From contig NZ_JASJOC010000002.1 of NCBI RefSeq assembly GCF_030068615.1, positions 372,001 to 436,000 of the forward strand: DNA of 64,000 nucleotides, written 5' to 3'. Position 1 is the first letter of the stretch, and every line of letters begins with the position of its first letter. The notes under the pieces are model-generated. The model saw nothing but the letters and a program-made list of their open reading frames with translations. It was not told where the DNA came from and ran no database searches. The position numbers were made by a program, and so were the translations under genes. Positions 24,030-33,067 of this stretch are shown here, in pieces. Origin of the DNA: Halostagnicola sp. A-GB9-2. GTDB lineage: Archaea > Halobacteriota > Halobacteria > Halobacteriales > Natrialbaceae.

Positions 24030-24818
24030 ATGCGACAACTCACCGAGACACCGCTCGTACGGGATGGAAAGTCAATCATTCTCGCGCACGATCACGGGCT
24101 CGAACACGGACCCGCTGCGTTCGACGACGTGCCTGAGAGATTGGATCCGAGGACGGTCTTCGAGATGGCAACCCACGACGCCGTGACCGGGTTTGCAGTC
24201 CAGAAGGGATTGGCGGAGACATACTACCCTTCCTACGACGATGACGTGAATTTGTTGGCGAAGCTCAACGGAACCAGCAGTCTCTGGATGGGCGAACCGT
24301 ACTCGCCACAAACGTGTTCGGTAGAGTACGCGCTCGAGCTCGGTGCAGATGCCATCGGATACACGGTGTACCCAGGAACCAACCGTGAAACGGAGATGTT
24401 CGAGGAATTCAGGGACGTCCAAGAGCGCGCTCGCGAGCACGACGTTCCGGTAGCCATGTGGTCGTATCCGCGTGGACAAGCGCTAAAGGAACATCGTCAC
24501 CCGGAGGTCATCTCGTACGCGACTCGAATCGCCCTCGAGCTCGGCGCGGACATCGCGAAGGTGAAGTATCCGCGCAGCGGGCAGGCGATGGCCGACGCTG
24601 TCGCCGCGGCGGGTGACGTCAACGTCGTTCTGAGCGGCGGATCCAAAGCCGATGATCGTGAGTTCCTCTCGCTGGTCGAAACCGCGATGAACGCGGGTGC
24701 GAGCGGTCTAGCGGTCGGTCGTAACGTCTGGCAACGGGAGAATCCCGAACAGATCCTTGACGCGCTCGAGGCGGTCGTCTTCGAGGGAGCGACTACCGAC
24801 GAGGCACTCGCCGAGTGA
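24030..24818 (+). CDS. fba: Class I fructose-1,6-bisphosphate aldolase, archaeal DhnA type
   Basis: The 262-residue protein opens with LVRDGKSIILAHDHGLEHGP, the hallmark of archaeal type class I aldolases (FbaB/DhnA). GADIAKVKYP places the Schiff-base lysine at residue 177, the same number as in the characterised Thermoproteus enzyme, and VVLSGGSKADD and GASGLAVGRNVWQ bind phosphate. It cleaves fructose-1,6-bisphosphate to glyceraldehyde-3-phosphate and dihydroxyacetone phosphate. Haloferax uses a class II aldolase at the corresponding place in its fructose operon, as I recall, so a class I enzyme here is a local difference. A 2-amino-3,7-dideoxyheptulosonate synthase role is excluded less firmly, since the families are close, but the operon context argues for the aldolase. 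Confidence 0.87.
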   Translation: MRQLTETPLVRDGKSIILAHDHGLEHGPAAFDDVPERLDPRTVFEMATHDAVTGFAVQKGLAETYYPSYDDDVNLLAKLNGTSSLWMGEPYSPQTCSVEYALELGADAIGYTVYPGTNRETEMFEEFRDVQERAREHDVPVAMWSYPRGQALKEHRHPEVISYATRIALELGADIAKVKYPRSGQAMADAVAAAGDVNVVLSGGSKADDREFLSLVETAMNAGASGLAVGRNVWQRENPEQILDALEAVVFEGATTDEALAE

Positions 24819-24959
24819 TTCCCGGCTCGAAACCCAGAGACCAGTCGAATATCACTACCACGAGCACCGCATTGCTCGTCGCGCGGACCCGATCAAAAAC
24901 GCTCACAATCAGATAGAAATATGAACGCCGCTGCACTATCGGTGGGTACGCAAACCGCT

Positions 24960-25727
24960 ATGCTCCCAGCAGTTAGAAAACGCGAAATCGTCGAGTTAGT
25001 TTCCGAGCAGGGTGAATGCTCCGTCGCCGAACTCGCTGCAGAGATGGATTGTTCGAAGGCGACGATTCGTCGCGATCTCAGCGATCTCCAGGACAGGAAG
25101 CTTATCGAGCGCTCTCACGGTGGCGCAGTTCCGGTAACGACCGTCGGGAACGAACAGACCTACGGTCAGAAGGAGGTGCAAAATCTCGACGGAAAGATGC
25201 GAATCGGGGAACGAGCAGCCGAGGAGATCACCGAGAATCAGGTCGTGTTCTTCGACTCCGGTTCGACGACGATGCAAGTAGCCAAGAACGCACCCGAGAA
25301 CAGGTCGTTCCTTGCAGTCACTAACTCGCCGGTTTTAGCTATCGAACTGGGAGAGCAGGCCAACGACGTAAAACTCACCGGTGGATCGCTCCGCCACGAG
25401 ACTCGCGCGCTTACAGGGCCGAGTGCAGAACGGTTCATGGAGCGAACGAACTTCGACGTGTTGTTTTTAGGAACGAATGCGATCGGACCGTCCGATGGGT
25501 TAATGACACCGAACGAGGACGAAGCCCGGCTGAAGTCGCTGATGATCGAGAACGCGGGCCGAGTCGTGCTCGTCTCCGATGGTTCCAAAATCGGGAAACA
25601 GAGTTTCGTGAAATTTGCCGAGTTAGAGGACATAGACATGTTTATAACGGATACGACGCTGTCCGATGAACAGTACGAGCCGTTCGAATCTGCTACCGTG
25701 GAAGTCATCCAGGAGGTCGAGCAGTGA
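24960..25727 (+). CDS. glpR: GlpR/DeoR-family transcriptional regulator
   Basis: The 255-residue protein has the DeoR N-terminal winged helix-turn-helix (MLPAVRKREIVELV, SVAELAAEMDCSKATIRRDLSDL, LIERSHGGAVPV) and a C-terminal sugar-phosphate-sensing domain of the ribose-isomerase-like fold (VVFFDSGSTTMQVAKN, DVLFLGTNAIGPSDGLMTPN, VLVSDGSKIGK). In Haloferax the GlpR encoded at the fructose locus represses fructose and glycerol genes. The stop codon overlaps the pfkB start by four bases, so the two are cotranscribed and translationally coupled. A longer start at 24921 adds 13 residues not seen in relatives; ATG 24960 gives the canonical MLP start. Confidence 0.88.
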   Translation: MLPAVRKREIVELVSEQGECSVAELAAEMDCSKATIRRDLSDLQDRKLIERSHGGAVPVTTVGNEQTYGQKEVQNLDGKMRIGERAAEEITENQVVFFDSGSTTMQVAKNAPENRSFLAVTNSPVLAIELGEQANDVKLTGGSLRHETRALTGPSAERFMERTNFDVLFLGTNAIGPSDGLMTPNEDEARLKSLMIENAGRVVLVSDGSKIGKQSFVKFAELEDIDMFITDTTLSDEQYEPFESATVEVIQEVEQ

Positions 25728-26650
25728 TCCTGACAGTGACGCTCAACCCCGCGGTCGATCACACGCTCAAAGTAGATCGCTTCCCCGTTCCTGATCGAGT
25801 CGCGAGGGCAGACGCCGCGCGTGTTGATCCCGGCGGAAAGGGGATCAACGTCTCGAAGTATCTCGTCGAACTAGAGACGGAAACGGTCGCTACGGGCATC
25901 GTCGGTGGCTTCCTCGGGAAATTCGTCCGCGACAGCTTGGCCGCTGGCGAGATCAACGGTGACTTCGTGGAAATCGATGGACGAACACGACTCAATACCA
26001 CGATACTGGCGGACGACGCCGAGTTCAAGATCAATCACGATGGACCGACAGTGTCCCAAAGTGCGATTGACGACCTTCTCGACACGGTCGAGCACAAAAG
26101 TCCCGATACCGTTGTCGTGGGCGGCAGTCTCCCGCCAGGTCTCGGCTCTGACACTATCGATCGGATCGCTCGAGCTGGAGACTGGGAGACAGTAGTCGAT
26201 GTCGGTGGATCCCTTCTCGAAGAGCTGAACGCATCGTACGCACTATGCAAACCAAATCGTGAGGAACTCGCTGCGGCGACTGGAAGTTCGGTTAGCTCTC
26301 TCGAGGAGTGCTACGACGCAGTCGAAGCGCTTCGTCGAATGGGCTACGATCGAGTGATTGCGTCGTTGGGTTCCGATGGGGCGATCATGTCAACATCCGA
26401 TGATTGCTTCCACGCCGCGGCAGTCGATACCGAGGTCGTTGACACGGTCGGTGCTGGCGATTCGCTGTTGGCAGGCGTCCTCTCTGCACTCGATCGAGGA
26501 TCGACGGATCGGGAGGCCCTTCGGGCTGGAATGGCGGTCGCTTCACGCGTCGTCTCGGTCCCTGGAACGGACATTCCGCCGCTTGATGACGTAGCGGATA
26601 CAACCAATCGCGTCTCCATCTCGGCGCGGGGGATCAGCCCGGATGGGTAG
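25724..26650 (+). CDS. pfkB: 1-phosphofructokinase (PfkB family)
   Basis: The 308-residue protein has VDPGGKGINVSKYL (substrate loop near the N-terminus) and DTVGAGDSLLAGVLSAL (PfkB signature 2 with the catalytic Asp), and opens ILTVTLNPAVDHTL as fructose-1-phosphate kinases do. It should phosphorylate the fructose-1-phosphate made by the PTS to fructose-1,6-bisphosphate. The start is GTG within the glpR stop (GTGA overlap). Tagatose-6-phosphate kinases share these motifs, but the operon identifies the substrate. About 230 bases separate it from ptfC, where a separate promoter is likely. Confidence 0.92.
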   Translation: MILTVTLNPAVDHTLKVDRFPVPDRVARADAARVDPGGKGINVSKYLVELETETVATGIVGGFLGKFVRDSLAAGEINGDFVEIDGRTRLNTTILADDAEFKINHDGPTVSQSAIDDLLDTVEHKSPDTVVVGGSLPPGLGSDTIDRIARAGDWETVVDVGGSLLEELNASYALCKPNREELAAATGSSVSSLEECYDAVEALRRMGYDRVIASLGSDGAIMSTSDDCFHAAAVDTEVVDTVGAGDSLLAGVLSALDRGSTDREALRAGMAVASRVVSVPGTDIPPLDDVADTTNRVSISARGISPDG

Positions 26651-26880
26651 CGACTGCTTGTGATCGATTACTACATATTCCTCGGAGTGTTTTCGTCTGT
26701 GATCGGTTACTCTTTTACTTTCGATTTAGTTGTCTTCCCTTTGTAGCTTGTATATCCGTGCCTCTCGTTATACAATACAACGATTTGAATGAACACGTCC
26801 ATATTTAATCCATATTTAAAAATCAGAAAAGATCATATTCGAAGACTATATTGAATAATACAGAGGATATATAGCAGAGC
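26651..26880 (+). promoter_or_regulatory. Promoter region of the PTS genes with tandem TCCATATTTA
   Basis: T-rich sequence just after pfkB (about 26685-26745) may end transcription. TCCATATTTA then occurs twice in tandem at 26798-26807 and 26809-26818, an 11-base period. AT-rich sequence near 26843-26853 (TATATTGAATA) is placed like a TATA box for ATG 26881. The tandem repeat lies about 30 bases upstream of that TATA and is a candidate operator. Confidence 0.45.
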
Positions 26881-28080
26881 ATGCCACCAGTAGACAAAGC
26901 AGAGGACGCACTCCGTTCACACATCACCTCCGTCAAGGAACACGTGATGACCGGCGTGTCGTTCATGATCCCGTTCGTCACAATCGGGGGGATATTCCTT
27001 GCAGTGGCGTTCATGATCGCCGAACTGCCCGATACCGTCTTCGGGTTCTCGATGCCCGGTGCAGGGACGACGACGGAGTCAGTCTTCGAGGAAACCGGGA
27101 CGCTCCCCTGGTATATGGCCGAGATCGGGGATCTCGGTCTGACGATCATGGTCCCTATTCTGGGAGCGTACATCGCGTACGCGATCGCAGATAGACCGGG
27201 ACTAGCACCAGGATTTATGCTATCGTGGGTGATCCAGCAGGAACACATAATCGAGGCAGCGGGCTCGCTCGTCGGTTTTACGGCCGACGGCGCCGTCGCC
27301 GGGTTCCTCGGCGCGCTGGTTGCGGGCCTACTGGCAGGCTACGTTGCACGGTGGATGAAAGGTTGGGCGGTACCTTCGGTTATCGAGCCGATGATGCCGG
27401 TGTTGATTATCCCGGTGTTCACTACGGCGCTGTTAGCGCCGCTCGTGATCGTCGGATTGGGAGTCCCCATTGCAATCGTCGATGATGCGCTGACGAGTTT
27501 CCTCGAGGGAATGACAGGAGCAAACGCGCTCTTTCTCGGCGCGATTCTGGGGGCGATGATGGCGGCCGACATGGGCGGCCCCATCAACAAGGTCGCGTAC
27601 GTGTTCGGCGCTGCGCTCGTCGGTGACCAGATCTTCGGGCCGATGGCCGCGGTGATGATCGCCGGCATGACGCCACCGCTCGGACTGGCGCTTTCGAACT
27701 TCATCGCACCCCAGAAGTACTCAGCCGAGATGTACGAGAACGCCAAAGCGGCGGTGCCGCTTGGCCTGTCGTTCATCACCGAGGGCGCGATTCCCTACGC
27801 CGCAGCCGACCCCCTTCGCGTCATTCCGAGCTGTATGATCGGCAGCGCGACCGCCGGAGCAGCCGCGCTCTGGCTCGGGGTTACGATGCCCGCACCCCAC
27901 GGAGGTATCTTCGTATTCCTCCTGTCGAACAGCGCGCTGTTGTTCCTCGGTTGTATCGCCCTCGGGACGATCGTAACCGCGGCCGTCGCGACGGCCATCA
28001 AGCCGGACTTCGAAAAGACAGTTGCCGACGTTGAAACCGAAACTAGCACAGCCACTCAGGCGACGCAAGCGAACGACTAA
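26881..28080 (+). CDS. ptfC: PTS fructose transporter subunit EIIC
   Basis: The 399-residue protein is the membrane channel of a fructose-family PTS. After a short cytoplasmic helix (DALRSHITSVKEHVMTGVSFMIPFVTIGGIF) it has about nine to ten hydrophobic segments; the NMGGPINKVAY-type loop appears here as DMGGPINKVAYVFG, and FITEGAIPYAAADPLRVIPSCMIGSATAGA carries the GAIPF-like substrate motif. It takes up fructose while EIIB phosphorylates it to fructose-1-phosphate. EIIA, EIIB and EIIC are separate polypeptides in this locus, unlike the fused bacterial FruA. The gene is followed after 41 bases by ptfA. Confidence 0.92.
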   Translation: MPPVDKAEDALRSHITSVKEHVMTGVSFMIPFVTIGGIFLAVAFMIAELPDTVFGFSMPGAGTTTESVFEETGTLPWYMAEIGDLGLTIMVPILGAYIAYAIADRPGLAPGFMLSWVIQQEHIIEAAGSLVGFTADGAVAGFLGALVAGLLAGYVARWMKGWAVPSVIEPMMPVLIIPVFTTALLAPLVIVGLGVPIAIVDDALTSFLEGMTGANALFLGAILGAMMAADMGGPINKVAYVFGAALVGDQIFGPMAAVMIAGMTPPLGLALSNFIAPQKYSAEMYENAKAAVPLGLSFITEGAIPYAAADPLRVIPSCMIGSATAGAAALWLGVTMPAPHGGIFVFLLSNSALLFLGCIALGTIVTAAVATAIKPDFEKTVADVETETSTATQATQAND

Positions 28081-28121
28081 GCCACCGATAGTTAACTACC
28101 GTTCACCACCACACACTCACT

Positions 28122-28598
28122 ATGACGGAAACACTCACCCAGGATCGCATCGAGACGCTCGCCGCAACCGATCAGATCACGCTCGACTCGGCACCCGCCG
28201 ACAAACGGGCCTGCATCGAATATCTGCTGGATCTACTCGTCGATGCTGGCCGCGTCGAGAACCGCGAGACGGCTCTCGAGGCACTGCTCGCTCGAGAAGC
28301 GGAGACGACGACCGGCGTCGGCATGGGAATCGGGATCCCCCACGCACAAACTGACGCCGTTAGCGAGCCGTCCGTGGCGTTTACTCGCTCGGAGGAAGGC
28401 GTCGACTTCGGCTCGATGGACGGCGAGCCCGCACGGCTCATTTTCATGATTCTCGTTCCCGAATCCGGCGCTGACGATCACCTCTCCATCCTGAGTACGC
28501 TCTCGCGAGCACTCATGCACGATGAAACACGGGATGGACTTTATGACGCGGAGACGCCGGAAGACGCACAGGCCGTTCTCAAGGAGGCGGTAGCATGA
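28122..28598 (+). CDS. ptfA: PTS fructose-type EIIA
   Basis: The 158-residue protein is a single EIIA-fructose/mannitol domain. TTTGVGMGIGIPHAQTDAV holds the phosphorylated histidine at residue 74, and FMILVPESGADDHLSILSTLSRAL follows as in PtsN/FruA EIIA domains. It receives phosphate from HPr and passes it to the EIIB cysteine. Its stop overlaps the ptsH start by four bases (ATGA), so translation is coupled. A purely regulatory PtsN-like role is unlikely because the other transport subunits are adjacent. Confidence 0.92.
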   Translation: MTETLTQDRIETLAATDQITLDSAPADKRACIEYLLDLLVDAGRVENRETALEALLAREAETTTGVGMGIGIPHAQTDAVSEPSVAFTRSEEGVDFGSMDGEPARLIFMILVPESGADDHLSILSTLSRALMHDETRDGLYDAETPEDAQAVLKEAVA

Positions 28599-28885
28599 GC
28601 ACCGAACGAACCGTGACGATCGTCCCCGAGGCCGGATTGCACGCTCGACCGGCCGCAACGTTCGTCGAGGCAGTCAACGATCACGAGTCGGACGTTCAGG
28701 TCGGCCATACTGACGAGGATGACCTCATTTCGGCTGGGAGCATGATCGCGGTCACGAGCCTCGGTGCCGAAGCCGGCGAAGAGATCCGGCTTCTCGCGGA
28801 CGGTCCCGACGAAGAAGCGACGCTCGACGCCCTCGAGCGCGTCTTGACCAAACCCGAGGACGAGATTGCCAATGTCGACACCTGA
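28595..28885 (+). CDS. ptsH: Phosphocarrier protein HPr
   Basis: The 96-residue protein starts MSTERTVTIVPEAGLHARPAATFVEAV. GLHARPA places the active histidine at residue 16, one position from the usual His15. ISAGSMIAVTSLGAEAGEEI corresponds to the regulatory-serine helix of bacterial HPr, with a serine at residue 49 aligned to Ser46; no HPr kinase is seen here, so regulation through that serine is doubtful. It carries phosphate from EI to EIIA. The small acidic C-terminal extension (KPEDEIANVDT) is halophile-like. Confidence 0.92.
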   Translation: MSTERTVTIVPEAGLHARPAATFVEAVNDHESDVQVGHTDEDDLISAGSMIAVTSLGAEAGEEIRLLADGPDEEATLDALERVLTKPEDEIANVDT

Positions 28886-28889
28886 ACAG

Positions 28890-30590
28890 ATGTCGGAACG
28901 CACGCTTACCGGTACTGGAGCGACGCCTCGCTCCGACGTGGGGACGGTCGTTTGGTACAGTTCCACCGCCGAACTTCCCGACCCCGACGACGGCACTGTC
29001 GAGCCAGACGTCGAGCGCGAACGGTTCACGGACGCACGCGAAACCGCTCGAGACGAATTAGAGGACGAACGGGAACGGACTGCCGAACGCGTCGGCGAGC
29101 AGGAGGCCGAAGTCTTCGACGCGCACGTGCAGTTCCTCGAGGATCCACAGATCGAAGATGGTGTCGAAAGTGCGATCGAGGACGGTCTACCGGCCGAACA
29201 CGCCGTCCAGCGGGCGTTTGCCGATCCGATCAAACAGTTCGAGGGAATGGACGGGCGGATGGCCGAGCGGGCCGATGATCTGCGCGACGTTCGCGATCGG
29301 CTCGTTCGGCTCCTCATCGACGGCGAACACGTTGATCTTGGTGGCCTTCCCGAAGGGACGGTCGTGCTCGCCGAACGGCTCACGCCGAGTGACACCGCTC
29401 AGCTCGATCCCGAATGCGTCGCCGGGTTCGCTACCGTGACCGGTGGCAGGACGTCCCACGCGGCGATATTCGCTCGCTCACTGGCCCTTCCCGCTGTCGT
29501 TGGCATCGGCGAGGAACTCCACAATATCGCCGCCGACGCGACAGTGGTCGTCGACGGAGAGGCCGGTGAACTCGTCGTTGAGCCGAGCGAGGAGCGCCGC
29601 GAGTCCGCACGGGCCACTCGCGAGGTGGAAGTCCGCGAGGAGCCGGTAACGACCGCCGACGGAACCGAAATCGAAATCGCGGCCAACGTCGGCCAGCCCG
29701 CCGAGCTCGAGGGGACGAAGGCTCAGGGGGCCGACGGCATCGGCCTTTACCGCACTGAATTCCTGTTCCTCGATCGCGAGCAAGCACCCGACGAAAACGA
29801 GCAGTACGAAACGTATACGGAGGCCCTCGAGACGTTCCCGGACGGCCGCGTCGTCGTCCGAACGCTCGACATCGGCGGCGACAAGCCGATTCCCTACCTC
29901 GACCTGCCCGAGGAGGAGAATCCGTTCCTCGGCGAGCGAGGGATTCGCCGATCACTTGGGCCCGACGCCGACCTTTTCGAGACGCAACTTCGCGCACTGT
30001 TTCGGGCGGCTGCAAACGGGGAGGGCCAACTGTCGATTATGTTCCCGGTCGTCGCGACACCCGAGGAACTCTCCGCCGCGCTCGAGACAGTCAGTACGGT
30101 CGCGCAGGCGCTCGAGGAGGAAGGAATCGACTACGCGGTCCCGGAACTCGGCGTCATGATCGAAACGCCCGGAGCCGTGTTTGCCGCACCGGAACTCGCC
30201 GAGCAAGTGGACTTTCTCAGTATCGGGACGAACGACCTCACCCAGTACGTTATGGCCGCGGCGCGTGAAAATGAACGCGTCGCGGATCTCCGAGATCCAC
30301 GCCGACCGGCCGTGTTGCGGGCAATTTCCCGAACCATCGAAGCCGCCCACGAAAACGACGCGTGGGTTGGGATGTGTGGAGAGATGGCCGGTAATCCGGA
30401 ACTGACCGAACTCCTCGTCGGACTGGGTCTCGACGAGCTCAGCATGAGTGCGGTTACCGTCCCGGACGTCAAAGCGGCCGTCCAATCGATCGATACCGAT
30501 GCGGCGGCCGAGCACGCGTCGCGAGCGCTCGAGGCAACGACCAGAGAACACGTTATCGACCGAATTCAACGCAACAACGCCAACCAATGA
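28890..30590 (+). CDS. ptsI: PTS enzyme I (phosphoenolpyruvate-protein phosphotransferase)
   Basis: The 566-residue protein has the order expected of EI: N-terminal HPr-binding helices (residues 30-140), the phosphohistidine domain with TGGRTSHAAIFARSL, His190, and the PEP-binding barrel with GIGLYRTEFLFLDREQAPDENEQ, GGDKPIPYL, MIETPGAVFAAPELAEQVDFLSIGTNDLTQY and WVGMCGEMAGNP (catalytic Cys). It autophosphorylates from PEP. ATG 28890 lies four bases after the ptsH stop and gives MSERTLTGTGATPRSDVG; in-frame ATGs at 28866 and 28872 would overlap ptsH. Its stop overlaps ptfB by four bases. PEP synthase and pyruvate phosphate dikinase share the barrel but not this N-terminal arrangement. Confidence 0.93.
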   Translation: MSERTLTGTGATPRSDVGTVVWYSSTAELPDPDDGTVEPDVERERFTDARETARDELEDERERTAERVGEQEAEVFDAHVQFLEDPQIEDGVESAIEDGLPAEHAVQRAFADPIKQFEGMDGRMAERADDLRDVRDRLVRLLIDGEHVDLGGLPEGTVVLAERLTPSDTAQLDPECVAGFATVTGGRTSHAAIFARSLALPAVVGIGEELHNIAADATVVVDGEAGELVVEPSEERRESARATREVEVREEPVTTADGTEIEIAANVGQPAELEGTKAQGADGIGLYRTEFLFLDREQAPDENEQYETYTEALETFPDGRVVVRTLDIGGDKPIPYLDLPEEENPFLGERGIRRSLGPDADLFETQLRALFRAAANGEGQLSIMFPVVATPEELSAALETVSTVAQALEEEGIDYAVPELGVMIETPGAVFAAPELAEQVDFLSIGTNDLTQYVMAAARENERVADLRDPRRPAVLRAISRTIEAAHENDAWVGMCGEMAGNPELTELLVGLGLDELSMSAVTVPDVKAAVQSIDTDAAAEHASRALEATTREHVIDRIQRNNANQ

Positions 30591-31048
30591 AACTCGTCGC
30601 AATCACGTCGTGTCCGACCGGTATCGCACACAGCCAGATGGCAGCAGAGAACCTCGAGACGACTGCCGAGGAGCAGGGCCACGACATCAAAGTCGAGGTC
30701 CAAGGCGCGATGGGCGCCGAAAACGAATTAACGGCCGACGAAATCGACGCTGCCGAGGCGGTCGTCATCGCCGCGGATACGGCGGTCAATCAAGACCGCT
30801 TCGAAGGCAAACCGCTCGTCAAGGGAACCGTCAAGGACGCGGTTAACGACGCCGAGGGGCTGATCGAGCAGGCGCTTCAACGGGCCGAAGGTGGCGAAGC
30901 CGGTGCTACCGGGGTTTCCGAAAGCGACGCTGCCTCGGGGAACAGCGGGGAGACTACCACAACCTCGGCGAGCGATACCGAAACCGAACAGCTCGGAGGT
31001 GACCCATCGAAGGGGCTCTTCGCCCGTCTTCGGAGGCTATTCTCGTGA
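30587..31048 (+). CDS. ptfB: PTS fructose-type EIIB with acidic C-terminal tail
   Basis: The 153-residue protein starts MKLVAITSCPTGIAHSQMAAENL, the P-loop-like phosphocysteine motif with Cys9. A standard EIIB-fructose domain of about 100 residues follows (EVQGAMGAENELTADEIDAAEAVVIAADTAV). The remaining roughly 50 residues are a Ser/Thr/Glu-rich linker ending GLFARLRRLFS, a short amphipathic basic segment that could associate with the membrane or with EIIC. That tail is not part of bacterial stand-alone EIIB. The protein transfers phosphate from EIIA to incoming fructose. Confidence 0.92.
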   Translation: MKLVAITSCPTGIAHSQMAAENLETTAEEQGHDIKVEVQGAMGAENELTADEIDAAEAVVIAADTAVNQDRFEGKPLVKGTVKDAVNDAEGLIEQALQRAEGGEAGATGVSESDAASGNSGETTTTSASDTETEQLGGDPSKGLFARLRRLFS

Positions 31049-31127
31049 ATACACCGCGCCGACTTGGATCGAACACGAGTCCAGTAACGGCCTCGACGAG
31101 CAGGTTGTCCTTGAGCGGGTGGTCTCG

Positions 31128-31964
31128 ATGACCGACGTACGCCACCTCGTCGATGCGATCGCGGCAGTGATACCCGAAGTTCGCGAGCAGTTTCGGGAAG
31201 CTCGCGGGAAGACGGCGACGGAAAACCCAAGTGGAGACATCCAGTCGTCTGCGGATCGACAGATCGATCGACTATTTCGTGACAAGCTCGCGTCGCTCGA
31301 CGCAGTCGGGACGTTCGCCAGCGAAGAACGTGAAGGCGTTGAGAACGTCGGTGAAGGGTTCAGCGTTGCCATCGATCCGCTCGATGGATCGTCGAACCTT
31401 CAATCGAACAACATCGTTGGAACGGTGGTCGGTGTGTACGACGCACCACTTCCAGCGAGCGGTCGTGATCTCGTCGCCGGTCTGTTTGTCCTTTATGGAC
31501 CGTTTACAACGGTTACCGTTGCCGTCGACGAATCGGTAACTCGGTACGTCGTCGACGATGGCGAAATCGTCGACGCAAATCCGGTGATCATTCCCGACGA
31601 GAGCGATATTTGCGGGTTTGCGGGCGCGACGAACGAGTGGCCAAAACCTGTCCGAGAATGCTGGGACGACCTGCACCGGGACTACAAACTTCGATATACG
31701 GGTGCAATGGTTGCAGATATCACCCATTTGCTCGTCAACGGTGGACTGCTCGGCTATCCCGAGCGCTCCTCGAGTCCTCACGGCGACCTCCGACTCCAGT
31801 ACGAAGCCAACCCGATCGCATATATCGTCGAGACCGCTGGTGGGCGTTCTTCAACGGGTCGAGGATCGATCCTCGATCGTAGTCCTGAGGAGCTCCACCA
31901 GCATACCCCAGCCTACTTCGGCAATGCCGAGCAGATCGATTTCCTGGAGTCAACATTGTCGTGA
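31128..31964 (+). CDS. fbp: Class I-type fructose-1,6-bisphosphatase
   Basis: The 278-residue protein has FASEERE (metal ligands), then FSVAIDPLDGSSNLQSNNIVGT, the signature of class I fructose-1,6-bisphosphatases, plus ADITHLLVNGGLLGYP and LRLQYEANPIAYIVETAGG near the substrate site. It would convert fructose-1,6-bisphosphate to fructose-6-phosphate, allowing imported fructose to reach glucosamine or glucose polymers. The frame opens upstream to 30891, but that part overlaps ptfB in another frame and does not resemble the family, so ATG 31128 is chosen, 79 bases after ptfB. An inositol monophosphatase-like activity is less likely because the class I FBPase spacing is kept. Confidence 0.88.
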   Translation: MTDVRHLVDAIAAVIPEVREQFREARGKTATENPSGDIQSSADRQIDRLFRDKLASLDAVGTFASEEREGVENVGEGFSVAIDPLDGSSNLQSNNIVGTVVGVYDAPLPASGRDLVAGLFVLYGPFTTVTVAVDESVTRYVVDDGEIVDANPVIIPDESDICGFAGATNEWPKPVRECWDDLHRDYKLRYTGAMVADITHLLVNGGLLGYPERSSSPHGDLRLQYEANPIAYIVETAGGRSSTGRGSILDRSPEELHQHTPAYFGNAEQIDFLESTLS

Positions 31965-32242: not shown

Positions 32243-33067
32243 ATGAACGGATTCGGCGACGGTAGAGTGGCCGGCACCTGGGTTCTCGTGGCCGCAGTCG
32301 GAACGGCGATGACTCTCGGTATCGCGCTCGGAGTCGGCGCACTCGCGGGAACCGCGTCGGCCGGAGACGGTCCTGCGGTCGTGACGCCCGAACCGGAAAC
32401 GGTCGAGGCCGAACCCGGCGAGGAGTTCGACGTGACCGTCAACCTCGAGAGCCACGGCGGCTACGGACTCGAGTCGCAGGTCGAATCGGTTCGGTTGCTT
32501 GCACTCGCCCACCCGGACTATCTCGAGGTTACCGATATCGAGGCCGGGACGTGGCTTGAGGAAGAAGAGACCGAGGTCCGTACGGGGACAGAAATCGCCG
32601 ACGACGGGTCGATCGCCGAGGCGGTTCAGTATCGAGATCCGCCGGCGGGCGGGACGACGAACGACGGCGAGTACGCCACGCTCACCGTTCGAGTCGCCGA
32701 GGATGCGCCGCCGTCAGAGGCCACGCTCGAGTTCGACGAGACGGGCGTCATGCTCACGGACAGTTATCCGCAGGCGGTTACCGGAACAGATCTCACTGTC
32801 GAGATCGATGGCGGTGGAGAACACCACGTCGCGTACGACCACGGTGATCTCGAGGCATTCGGTCACGCGGAGACGTTCGCCGAAACGGGCGGCGGCGAGG
32901 AGATTCCGACCGAACTCGCGCCGCCGGAATCCCAATCCGAGGACGAGGATGCGAGCGACGACGGAGGGTCAGATGGCGGCGATTCGGTTCCGGGGTTCAC
33001 CGGTGTTGGTGTAGGACTGGCGGCGCTTTTGGGTATTATTGCAGTCGTCGTGCGGTCGCGTCTTTGA
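32243..33067 (+). CDS. Secreted cohesin-like domain protein with PGF-CTERM anchor
   Basis: The 274-residue protein has an N-terminal Sec-type signal (WVLVAAVGTAMTLGIALGVGALAGTASA, cleavage near residue 40). Residues of about 45-190 form a beta-rich domain (VVTPEPETVEAEPGEEFDVTVNLESHGGYGLESQVESVRLL) resembling archaeal cohesin domains. An acidic Ser/Asp/Gly linker follows, and the end, VPGFTGVGVGLAALLGIIAVVVRSRL in outline, is a complete PGF-CTERM signal (PGF, transmembrane helix, basic tail). Archaeosortase ArtA should cleave it and attach the protein to a membrane lipid. A cohesin partner (dockerin) is not seen in this window. Confidence 0.83.
   Translation: MNGFGDGRVAGTWVLVAAVGTAMTLGIALGVGALAGTASAGDGPAVVTPEPETVEAEPGEEFDVTVNLESHGGYGLESQVESVRLLALAHPDYLEVTDIEAGTWLEEEETEVRTGTEIADDGSIAEAVQYRDPPAGGTTNDGEYATLTVRVAEDAPPSEATLEFDETGVMLTDSYPQAVTGTDLTVEIDGGGEHHVAYDHGDLEAFGHAETFAETGGGEEIPTELAPPESQSEDEDASDDGGSDGGDSVPGFTGVGVGLAALLGIIAVVVRSRL

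Follow-up and report, generated by a model that had tools for sequence, protein, structure and literature searches.

Why should a locus that takes up fructose and makes fructose-1,6-bisphosphate (FBP) also carry a phosphatase for the same compound? The question is raised by positions 24030-31964 of the 64,000-nucleotide stretch of Halostagnicola sp. A-GB9-2 analyzed here (contig NZ_JASJOC010000002.1, positions 372,001 to 436,000; hereafter the window), where a fructose phosphotransferase system (PTS) locus that includes a kinase gene, pfkB, ends in fbp, a gene of the class I fructose-1,6-bisphosphatase (FBPase) family. The initial annotation had seen in PfkB and the FBPase a kinase and a phosphatase adding and removing the same phosphate, a cycle that would need allosteric control or a separate fbp promoter. 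Our comparisons instead place the FBPase in a distinct clade of PTS-associated paralogues, and we propose, with a probability of roughly 0.6, that it is a fructose-dedicated FBPase which would produce fructose 6-phosphate (F6P) for biosynthesis.

A futile cycle with PfkB was ruled out by reaction chemistry. 1-Phosphofructokinase adds the C6 phosphate to fructose 1-phosphate (F1P) and class I FBPase removes the C1 phosphate, and PfkB passes the 1-phosphofructokinase equivalog model (485.5 bits vs cut-off 400); the two enzymes are therefore consecutive steps from F1P to F6P and form no cycle by themselves. The true antagonist of an FBPase is a 6-phosphofructokinase, which rephosphorylates F6P. 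The classical family of this enzyme (PF00365) was matched in none of 121 Natrialbaceae genomes, while 9 of 14 control genomes were matched, which agrees with what a ten-genome comparison of haloarchaea showed (PMC3102087).

For fbp, GTG 30891 was rejected as the start codon: it sits inside ptfB, and the first 79 codons of that open reading frame are ptfB in another frame followed by the intergenic gap. Because homology starts only near residue 80 of this frame (residues 80-83 for the best FBPase models), ATG 31128 is the likely start. In an alignment numbered by human FBPase the protein retains E97, E98, D118, D121, S123, S124, R243, Y244, Y264, R276 and E280, which include the class I metal and catalytic residues (E97, E98, D118, D121, E280) and the phosphate residue R276, while the substrate lysine 274 is absent and Asp220 stands in its place. 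All 50 rows shown from a structure search with the predicted model were FBPases (best Z 33.1, root-mean-square deviation 2.5, 272 residues aligned), with the proviso that confidence was high for a single model of the five (pLDDT 83.6; others 42.6-56.3) and that residues 217-221, Asp220 among them, fell below 50. The gene is under purifying selection, with dN/dS of 0.15 against the relative G087, 0.15 against N. jeotgali and 0.18 against the relative G057.

The missing lysine marks a clade. Ninety haloarchaeal hits, drawn from best matches, PTS neighbors and picked housekeeping copies rather than at random, gave 62 distinct FBPases, of which 36 carried the lysine of the GKLR motif and 26 (K-less) had V (15), D (9), N (1) or I (1) in that column. 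In a maximum-likelihood tree a single branch, supported at 100/98, separated the two sets, and the 26 K-less sequences still formed one clade (100/98) when four outgroup rows were added and the Lys274 column was removed. Rooted on the outgroup, for which the program warned of long branches and unlike composition, the tree requires two changes for the Lys-bearing rows, as expected if lysine is ancestral; one of the four outgroup FBPases has Arg at this column. Among 278 comparable columns Lys274 discriminates best by construction, since the groups were defined by it, and is followed by human columns 262 (second) and 196 (third); several high-ranking columns (196, 240, 77) lie outside the known pocket sites. 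Judged by sequence, the locus FBPase is thus not the housekeeping FBPase but a member of a separate, PTS-associated paralogue clade. It shares with the housekeeping haloarchaeal class I enzyme (H. hispanica fbp, a TrmB target; PMC10817205) the family, the metal-site residues, R243 and R276, and differs from it in Lys274 and other pocket columns, in clade, and in standing beside fructose-PTS genes rather than in an fba-fbp operon. Two further FBPases are encoded in the same genome, on contigs C9 and C1. Of the 292 haloarchaeal genomes sampled, 18 or more have a K-less gene; these genes carry the class 1 FBPase label in records (for example the Natrinema plasmid copy) despite the missing conserved substrate lysine. 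No description of a PTS-linked FBPase clade was found in the literature searched, which excluded key Haloferax papers (Pickl 2012, Martin 2018). A second FBPase-like paralogue (L241, L242, L243), with a GKLRV/I context and found in some other families, stood apart on a long branch of its own among the Lys-bearing sequences.

The association with fructose uptake was close. Fructose-PTS genes adjoin 25 of the 26 K-less FBPases, in one case within a decayed locus; the remaining copy, in G128, is on a different contig from the EIIC of that genome. None of the 36 Lys-bearing FBPases was found in an EIIC stretch. The 292 genomes, drawn from the class, comprised 75 with an EIIC match and 217 with none; a class I FBPase was matched in 286 and in none of the remaining six. 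By codon patterns, K-less genes were present in at least 18 of the 75 EIIC-positive genomes and none was found in the 217 EIIC-negative ones (Fisher test 4e-12, with related species counted as independent), and in 17 of the 18 the gene was within about 9 kb of EIIC. The patterns had given 11 and 8 genomes; two of these (G032 and G143) were removed as chance matches with no FBPase within the surrounding 20 and 19 kb, and G283, missed by the pattern and K-less in the alignment, was added (9 + 8 + 1 = 18). Since the pattern requires a fixed context of the LRL-Q-[YF]-E type, 18 is a lower bound.

The window locus runs in one direction in the order aldolase, GlpR, PfkB, EIIC, EIIA, HPr, EI, EIIB and FBPase-type protein, with the following features:

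24030..24818, + strand: fbaI, predicted archaeal class I fructose-1,6-bisphosphate aldolase (FBA), fructose-locus paralogue (Thermoproteus tenax FBA 8e-69; Lys177 and Tyr146 aligned; tree)
24921..25727, + strand: glpR, DeoR-family regulator (NF041397, 411.6 bits vs cut-off 300)
25724..26650, + strand: pfkB, 1-phosphofructokinase (NF041320 equivalog, 485.5 bits vs cut-off 400)
26651..26880, + strand: pfkB-ptfC intergenic region, candidate promoter/operator (block conserved in nine loci)
26881..28080, + strand: ptfC, fructose EIIC (TIGR01427, 318.8 vs 157.55)
28122..28598, + strand: ptfA, EIIA with His74 (TIGR00848, 119.7 vs 103.5)
28595..28885, + strand: ptsH, HPr with His16 (TIGR01003, 73.7 vs 47.9)
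28890..30590, + strand: ptsI, EI with His190, from ATG 28890 (TIGR01417, 516.1 vs 341.7)
30587..31048, + strand: ptfB, EIIB with Cys9, acidic linker and basic amphipathic tail (TIGR00829, 103.5 vs 76.85)
31049..31127, + strand: ptfB-fbp gap, without a conserved promoter-like block (intergenic alignment)
31128..31964, + strand: fbp, FBPase-like paralogue of 278 aa, Asp220 replacing Lys274 (profile, alignment, tree, structure match)

The PTS part is ordinary. The complete fructose PTS locus described in the initial annotation was recovered gene for gene, in the order given and on the + strand; each of the five proteins reached its TIGR cut-off, and the phosphorylation residues were present, those of EIIA, HPr and EIIB exactly as numbered before. 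The EI residue is His190 when counted from ATG 28890 and residue 198 when counted from TTG 28866, so that the earlier number implies the ATG start. HPr scored narrowly below the cut-off of the haloarchaeal model NF041319 (131.6 vs 140), and the GlpR model match starts at residue 14 of the listed frame, with ATG 24960 a possible alternative start.

An FBPase gene was present in 18 of 77 EIIC stretches (76 fetched and the window, some ending at contig ends), in several layouts. In eight, the genes share one direction, from fbaI at the front to fbp at the end (the window, six others of the same family and G031 from another family); in four a convergent fbaI-fbp pair follows ptfB; in five fbp lies upstream, tail-to-tail with an inverted pfkB, and glpR accompanies pfkB in four of these; one locus is decayed. 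That fbp has stayed close to the PTS genes while the locus was rearranged several times points to a functional link with fructose. In an overlapping set of 59 named loci of a genome collection 11 held fbp, and the locus was also found on large plasmids, including a Natrinema plasmid of the window layout (no ptsI is annotated in the listed table).

The Haloferax fructose operon (described in PMC11519228) resembles the window in its gene order for GlpR, PfkB and the PTS, which is likewise divided among five separate proteins. As the initial annotation had noted, the class I aldolase at the front and the FBPase at the end set the window apart: in the one Haloferax locus tested a class II aldolase (PF01116, 247 bits) follows ptfB, and neither a class I FBA of the window type nor fbp was found within the Haloferax stretches examined.

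The aldolase assignment draws on several lines of comparison. The nearest structures were T. tenax class I FBA (8e-69) and, at a distance, MJ0400 (2e-34), and the Schiff-base Lys177 and Tyr146, the latter a residue which we take to have a role in class I FBA, aligned with the T. tenax enzyme. No NCBIfam cut-off was reached, which counts against the call: the archaeal class I FBA model NF040816 gave 200.1 bits (cut-off 430) and the best-scoring model, the ADTH-synthase subfamily NF005556, gave 209.8 (cut-off 241). An AroA'-type (ADTH synthase) paralogue was considered and rejected, that group being 31%-34% identical and on a separate branch of the tree. On this sequence evidence we regard the protein as a class I FBA. 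It fell within a mostly fructose-locus clade (29 of 31 rows) in a quick tree without bootstrap, in which the fructose-locus label needs three changes, so this clade is less clean. The same clade held the closest FBA in G084 (72% identity to the window aldolase), which we took as H. hispanica FbaB1. Genetic evidence shows that FbaB1 is needed for growth on either fructose or casamino acids, and it serves both ketohexokinase-based fructose use and gluconeogenesis (PMC11519228); the window genome differs in having a separate gluconeogenic-type copy, a second class I aldolase on C1 directly ahead of a housekeeping-type fbp. A dedicated fba and fbp accompany the PTS, alongside a separate gluconeogenic-type fba-fbp pair. 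The fructose-locus aldolase gene of G118 (L286, G118:C3:193598-194374) contained one in-frame TGA.

From the enzyme families present, PTS uptake would give F1P and PfkB would convert it to FBP, at which point the route would branch. The dedicated class I aldolase would feed FBP into catabolism, and the dedicated FBPase paralogue would return part of it as F6P for glucose 6-phosphate (G6P), the oxidative pentose phosphate pathway and glycans. The route delivers fructose carbon as FBP, but these three products (G6P, pentoses made oxidatively, and glycans) have to be made from F6P, and this would be the reason for a dedicated FBPase; the genome has a PGI and a gene of the 6PGDH family (a relative of 6-phosphogluconate dehydrogenase). 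A parallel is found in C. glutamicum, where fructose used via PtsF and FruK likewise passes through F1P to FBP and FBPase supplies F6P; growth of an fbp deletion strain on fructose is poor there, except when the sugar is brought in as F6P (PMC8193941). C. glutamicum differs in being a bacterium with a 6-phosphofructokinase, and its FBPase is described in that paper as the gluconeogenic enzyme and not as a fructose-locus copy. TrmB of H. hispanica occupies the promoter of fbp and switches the gene on in the absence of glucose (PMC10817205), and a fructose-locus copy would free F6P supply from this control. Fructose-derived F6P could then be made at times of high FBP, when expression of the gluconeogenic fba-fbp operon may be low, and the paralogue may have a lowered affinity for FBP, which would make it draw mainly on a high FBP pool. 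Read in this way, a puzzling futile cycle would be replaced by a branch point which yields F6P from F1P-entering fructose in an archaeon without a classical phosphofructokinase.

A decaying locus (L155) in G020, a small genome from the window's genus, bears on the activity. There the reading frame of ptfC is broken and the N-terminal half missing, glpR survives as fragments and no pfkB was seen within the locus stretch, and fbp remains open. This K-less gene is the only class I FBPase of the genome, and no GlpX was found; the literal DPLDG string is absent from the protein, although the D118 and D121 columns are still D. Retention after PTS decay is suggestive of K-less enzymes doing FBPase work.

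Several points weigh against a fructose-dedicated FBPase. The G020 argument is weakened by the six genomes with no class I FBPase match, and bifunctional aldolase/phosphatase and inositol-phosphatase-type FBPases were not searched for in G020. No linked FBPase was present in 58 of the 75 EIIC genomes (59 of the 77 stretches, some of which end at contig ends). A Halocatena salina plasmid (L094, 11197-11438) carries after ptfB only an fbp remnant, matching query residues 1-82, beside PTS genes that look intact; this window-like locus in another family suggests horizontal transfer. The layout in which fbp is convergent with pfkB shows that co-transcription is not general. Pocket columns other than Lys274 are also altered in the K-less group, and with the class 1 FBPase model NF006786 (cut-off 428 bits) the window protein scored 308.4 while the housekeeping copies of the same genome scored 463.9 and 455.6. 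The window phosphatase looks like an FBPase in its anatomy, yet by sequence it lacks both the Lys274 and the NF006786 score of the housekeeping group.

These last points are also grounds for a changed substrate, in which the K-less paralogue would no longer be a physiological FBPase and would hydrolyze F1P or another sugar phosphate of fructose use, for instance to relieve F1P build-up. Lys274 is missing in all 26 members, as their defining trait; columns 245, 279 and 212 rank 5th, 7th and 13th of the 278, columns 212 and 245 lying in what we take to be substrate-site stretches; at the Tyr215 column the Arg of the majority of housekeeping enzymes gives way to Ala, Ser or Thr in the window-type clade; and among the proteins scored with NF006786 (4 of the 26 K-less and 3 of the 36 Lys-bearing), the four K-less ones (230-318) lay about 110 bits or more below its cut-off. 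The window protein nevertheless retains R243, Y244, Y264 and R276, an F1P phosphatase would waste phosphoenolpyruvate, and G020 has kept only the K-less type, so that we consider a changed substrate unlikely, although worth serious attention. The broader claim that class I FBPase has given rise, in the PTS-associated clade, to a new family of sugar-phosphate phosphatases acting mainly on F1P or another fructose-derived ester seems to us marginally more doubtful still; if true, the enzyme would control the shares of incoming fructose that are trapped, burned and released.

The pair might also be plainly redundant, a second gluconeogenic fba-fbp set carried on a mobile sugar locus and interchangeable with the housekeeping pair. 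Occurrence of the locus on large plasmids and the absence of a linked fbp from most EIIC genomes would fit such a history. A single clade with group-wide pocket changes, purifying selection and a tie to fructose-PTS genes does not, nor does an aldolase that also falls in a mostly fructose-locus clade, and we regard redundancy as improbable.

An ATP-wasting cycle, for which it can be said that FBP is both product of PfkB and substrate of the FBPase, is very improbable given the different phosphates involved, the missing PF00365 family and the observations on relatives and regulation that follow. A homologue of ADP-dependent phosphofructokinase/glucokinase (PF04587) was found in 46 of the 121 Natrialbaceae genomes, including the window genome (C9:21134-22429), and could close a cycle with the FBPase if it accepted F6P. 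The same-layout relatives G057 and G087 lack PF04587, however, and the window arrangement is therefore independent of it. The window genome's homologue lies about 10 kb from the C9 FBPase, and on a Natrialba magadii plasmid (L275) such a gene stands directly beside a Lys-bearing fbp.

Neither form of control invoked for that cycle found much support. At columns K112, Y113 and R140, which we take to be AMP-site residues of FBPase, the window protein has a gap, F and a gap, and Lys at column 112 was present in none of the 62 aligned haloarchaeal FBPases. The sequence match starts at human residue 38-39 and the structural match at chain residue 20, so part of the N-terminal AMP segment may be present according to the model. 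As for a separate fbp promoter, an alignment of nine same-layout loci (three of them close Natrialba relatives) showed conserved blocks before fbaI, glpR and ptfC, whereas no comparable AT-rich block was seen in the nine ptfB-fbp gaps (57-101 bases). Where the genes are arranged as in the window, we infer that fbp is most likely cotranscribed with ptfC-ptfA-ptsH-ptsI-ptfB; sigma-70 promoter and terminator scans are uninformative in an archaeon. In the window, the block just before ptfC (within 26651-26880) includes an imperfect inverted repeat, TATTC-N12-GAATA, which is a candidate regulator site.

The locus is bordered by unrelated genes, a DHH/OB-fold protein upstream and, downstream, a protein with a weak Cohesin-domain match directly 3' of the locus (32243-33067; 25.9 bits, cut-off 24.1) and an HhH-GPD repair protein. 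Within the PTS, EIIB has at 30890-31045 a linker of acidic, low-complexity sequence and, at its C-terminus, a conserved segment that is basic and amphipathic (GGDPSKGLFARLRRLFS). A terminal pattern, devised post hoc from the sequences to which it was applied, is matched by 106 of the 109 distinct EIIBs from 137 haloarchaeal loci, and the haloarchaeal proteins have a median length of 154 aa compared with 106 and 114 positions in two standalone fructose-like EIIB models. The tail may serve to anchor EIIB, either at the membrane or on EIIC.

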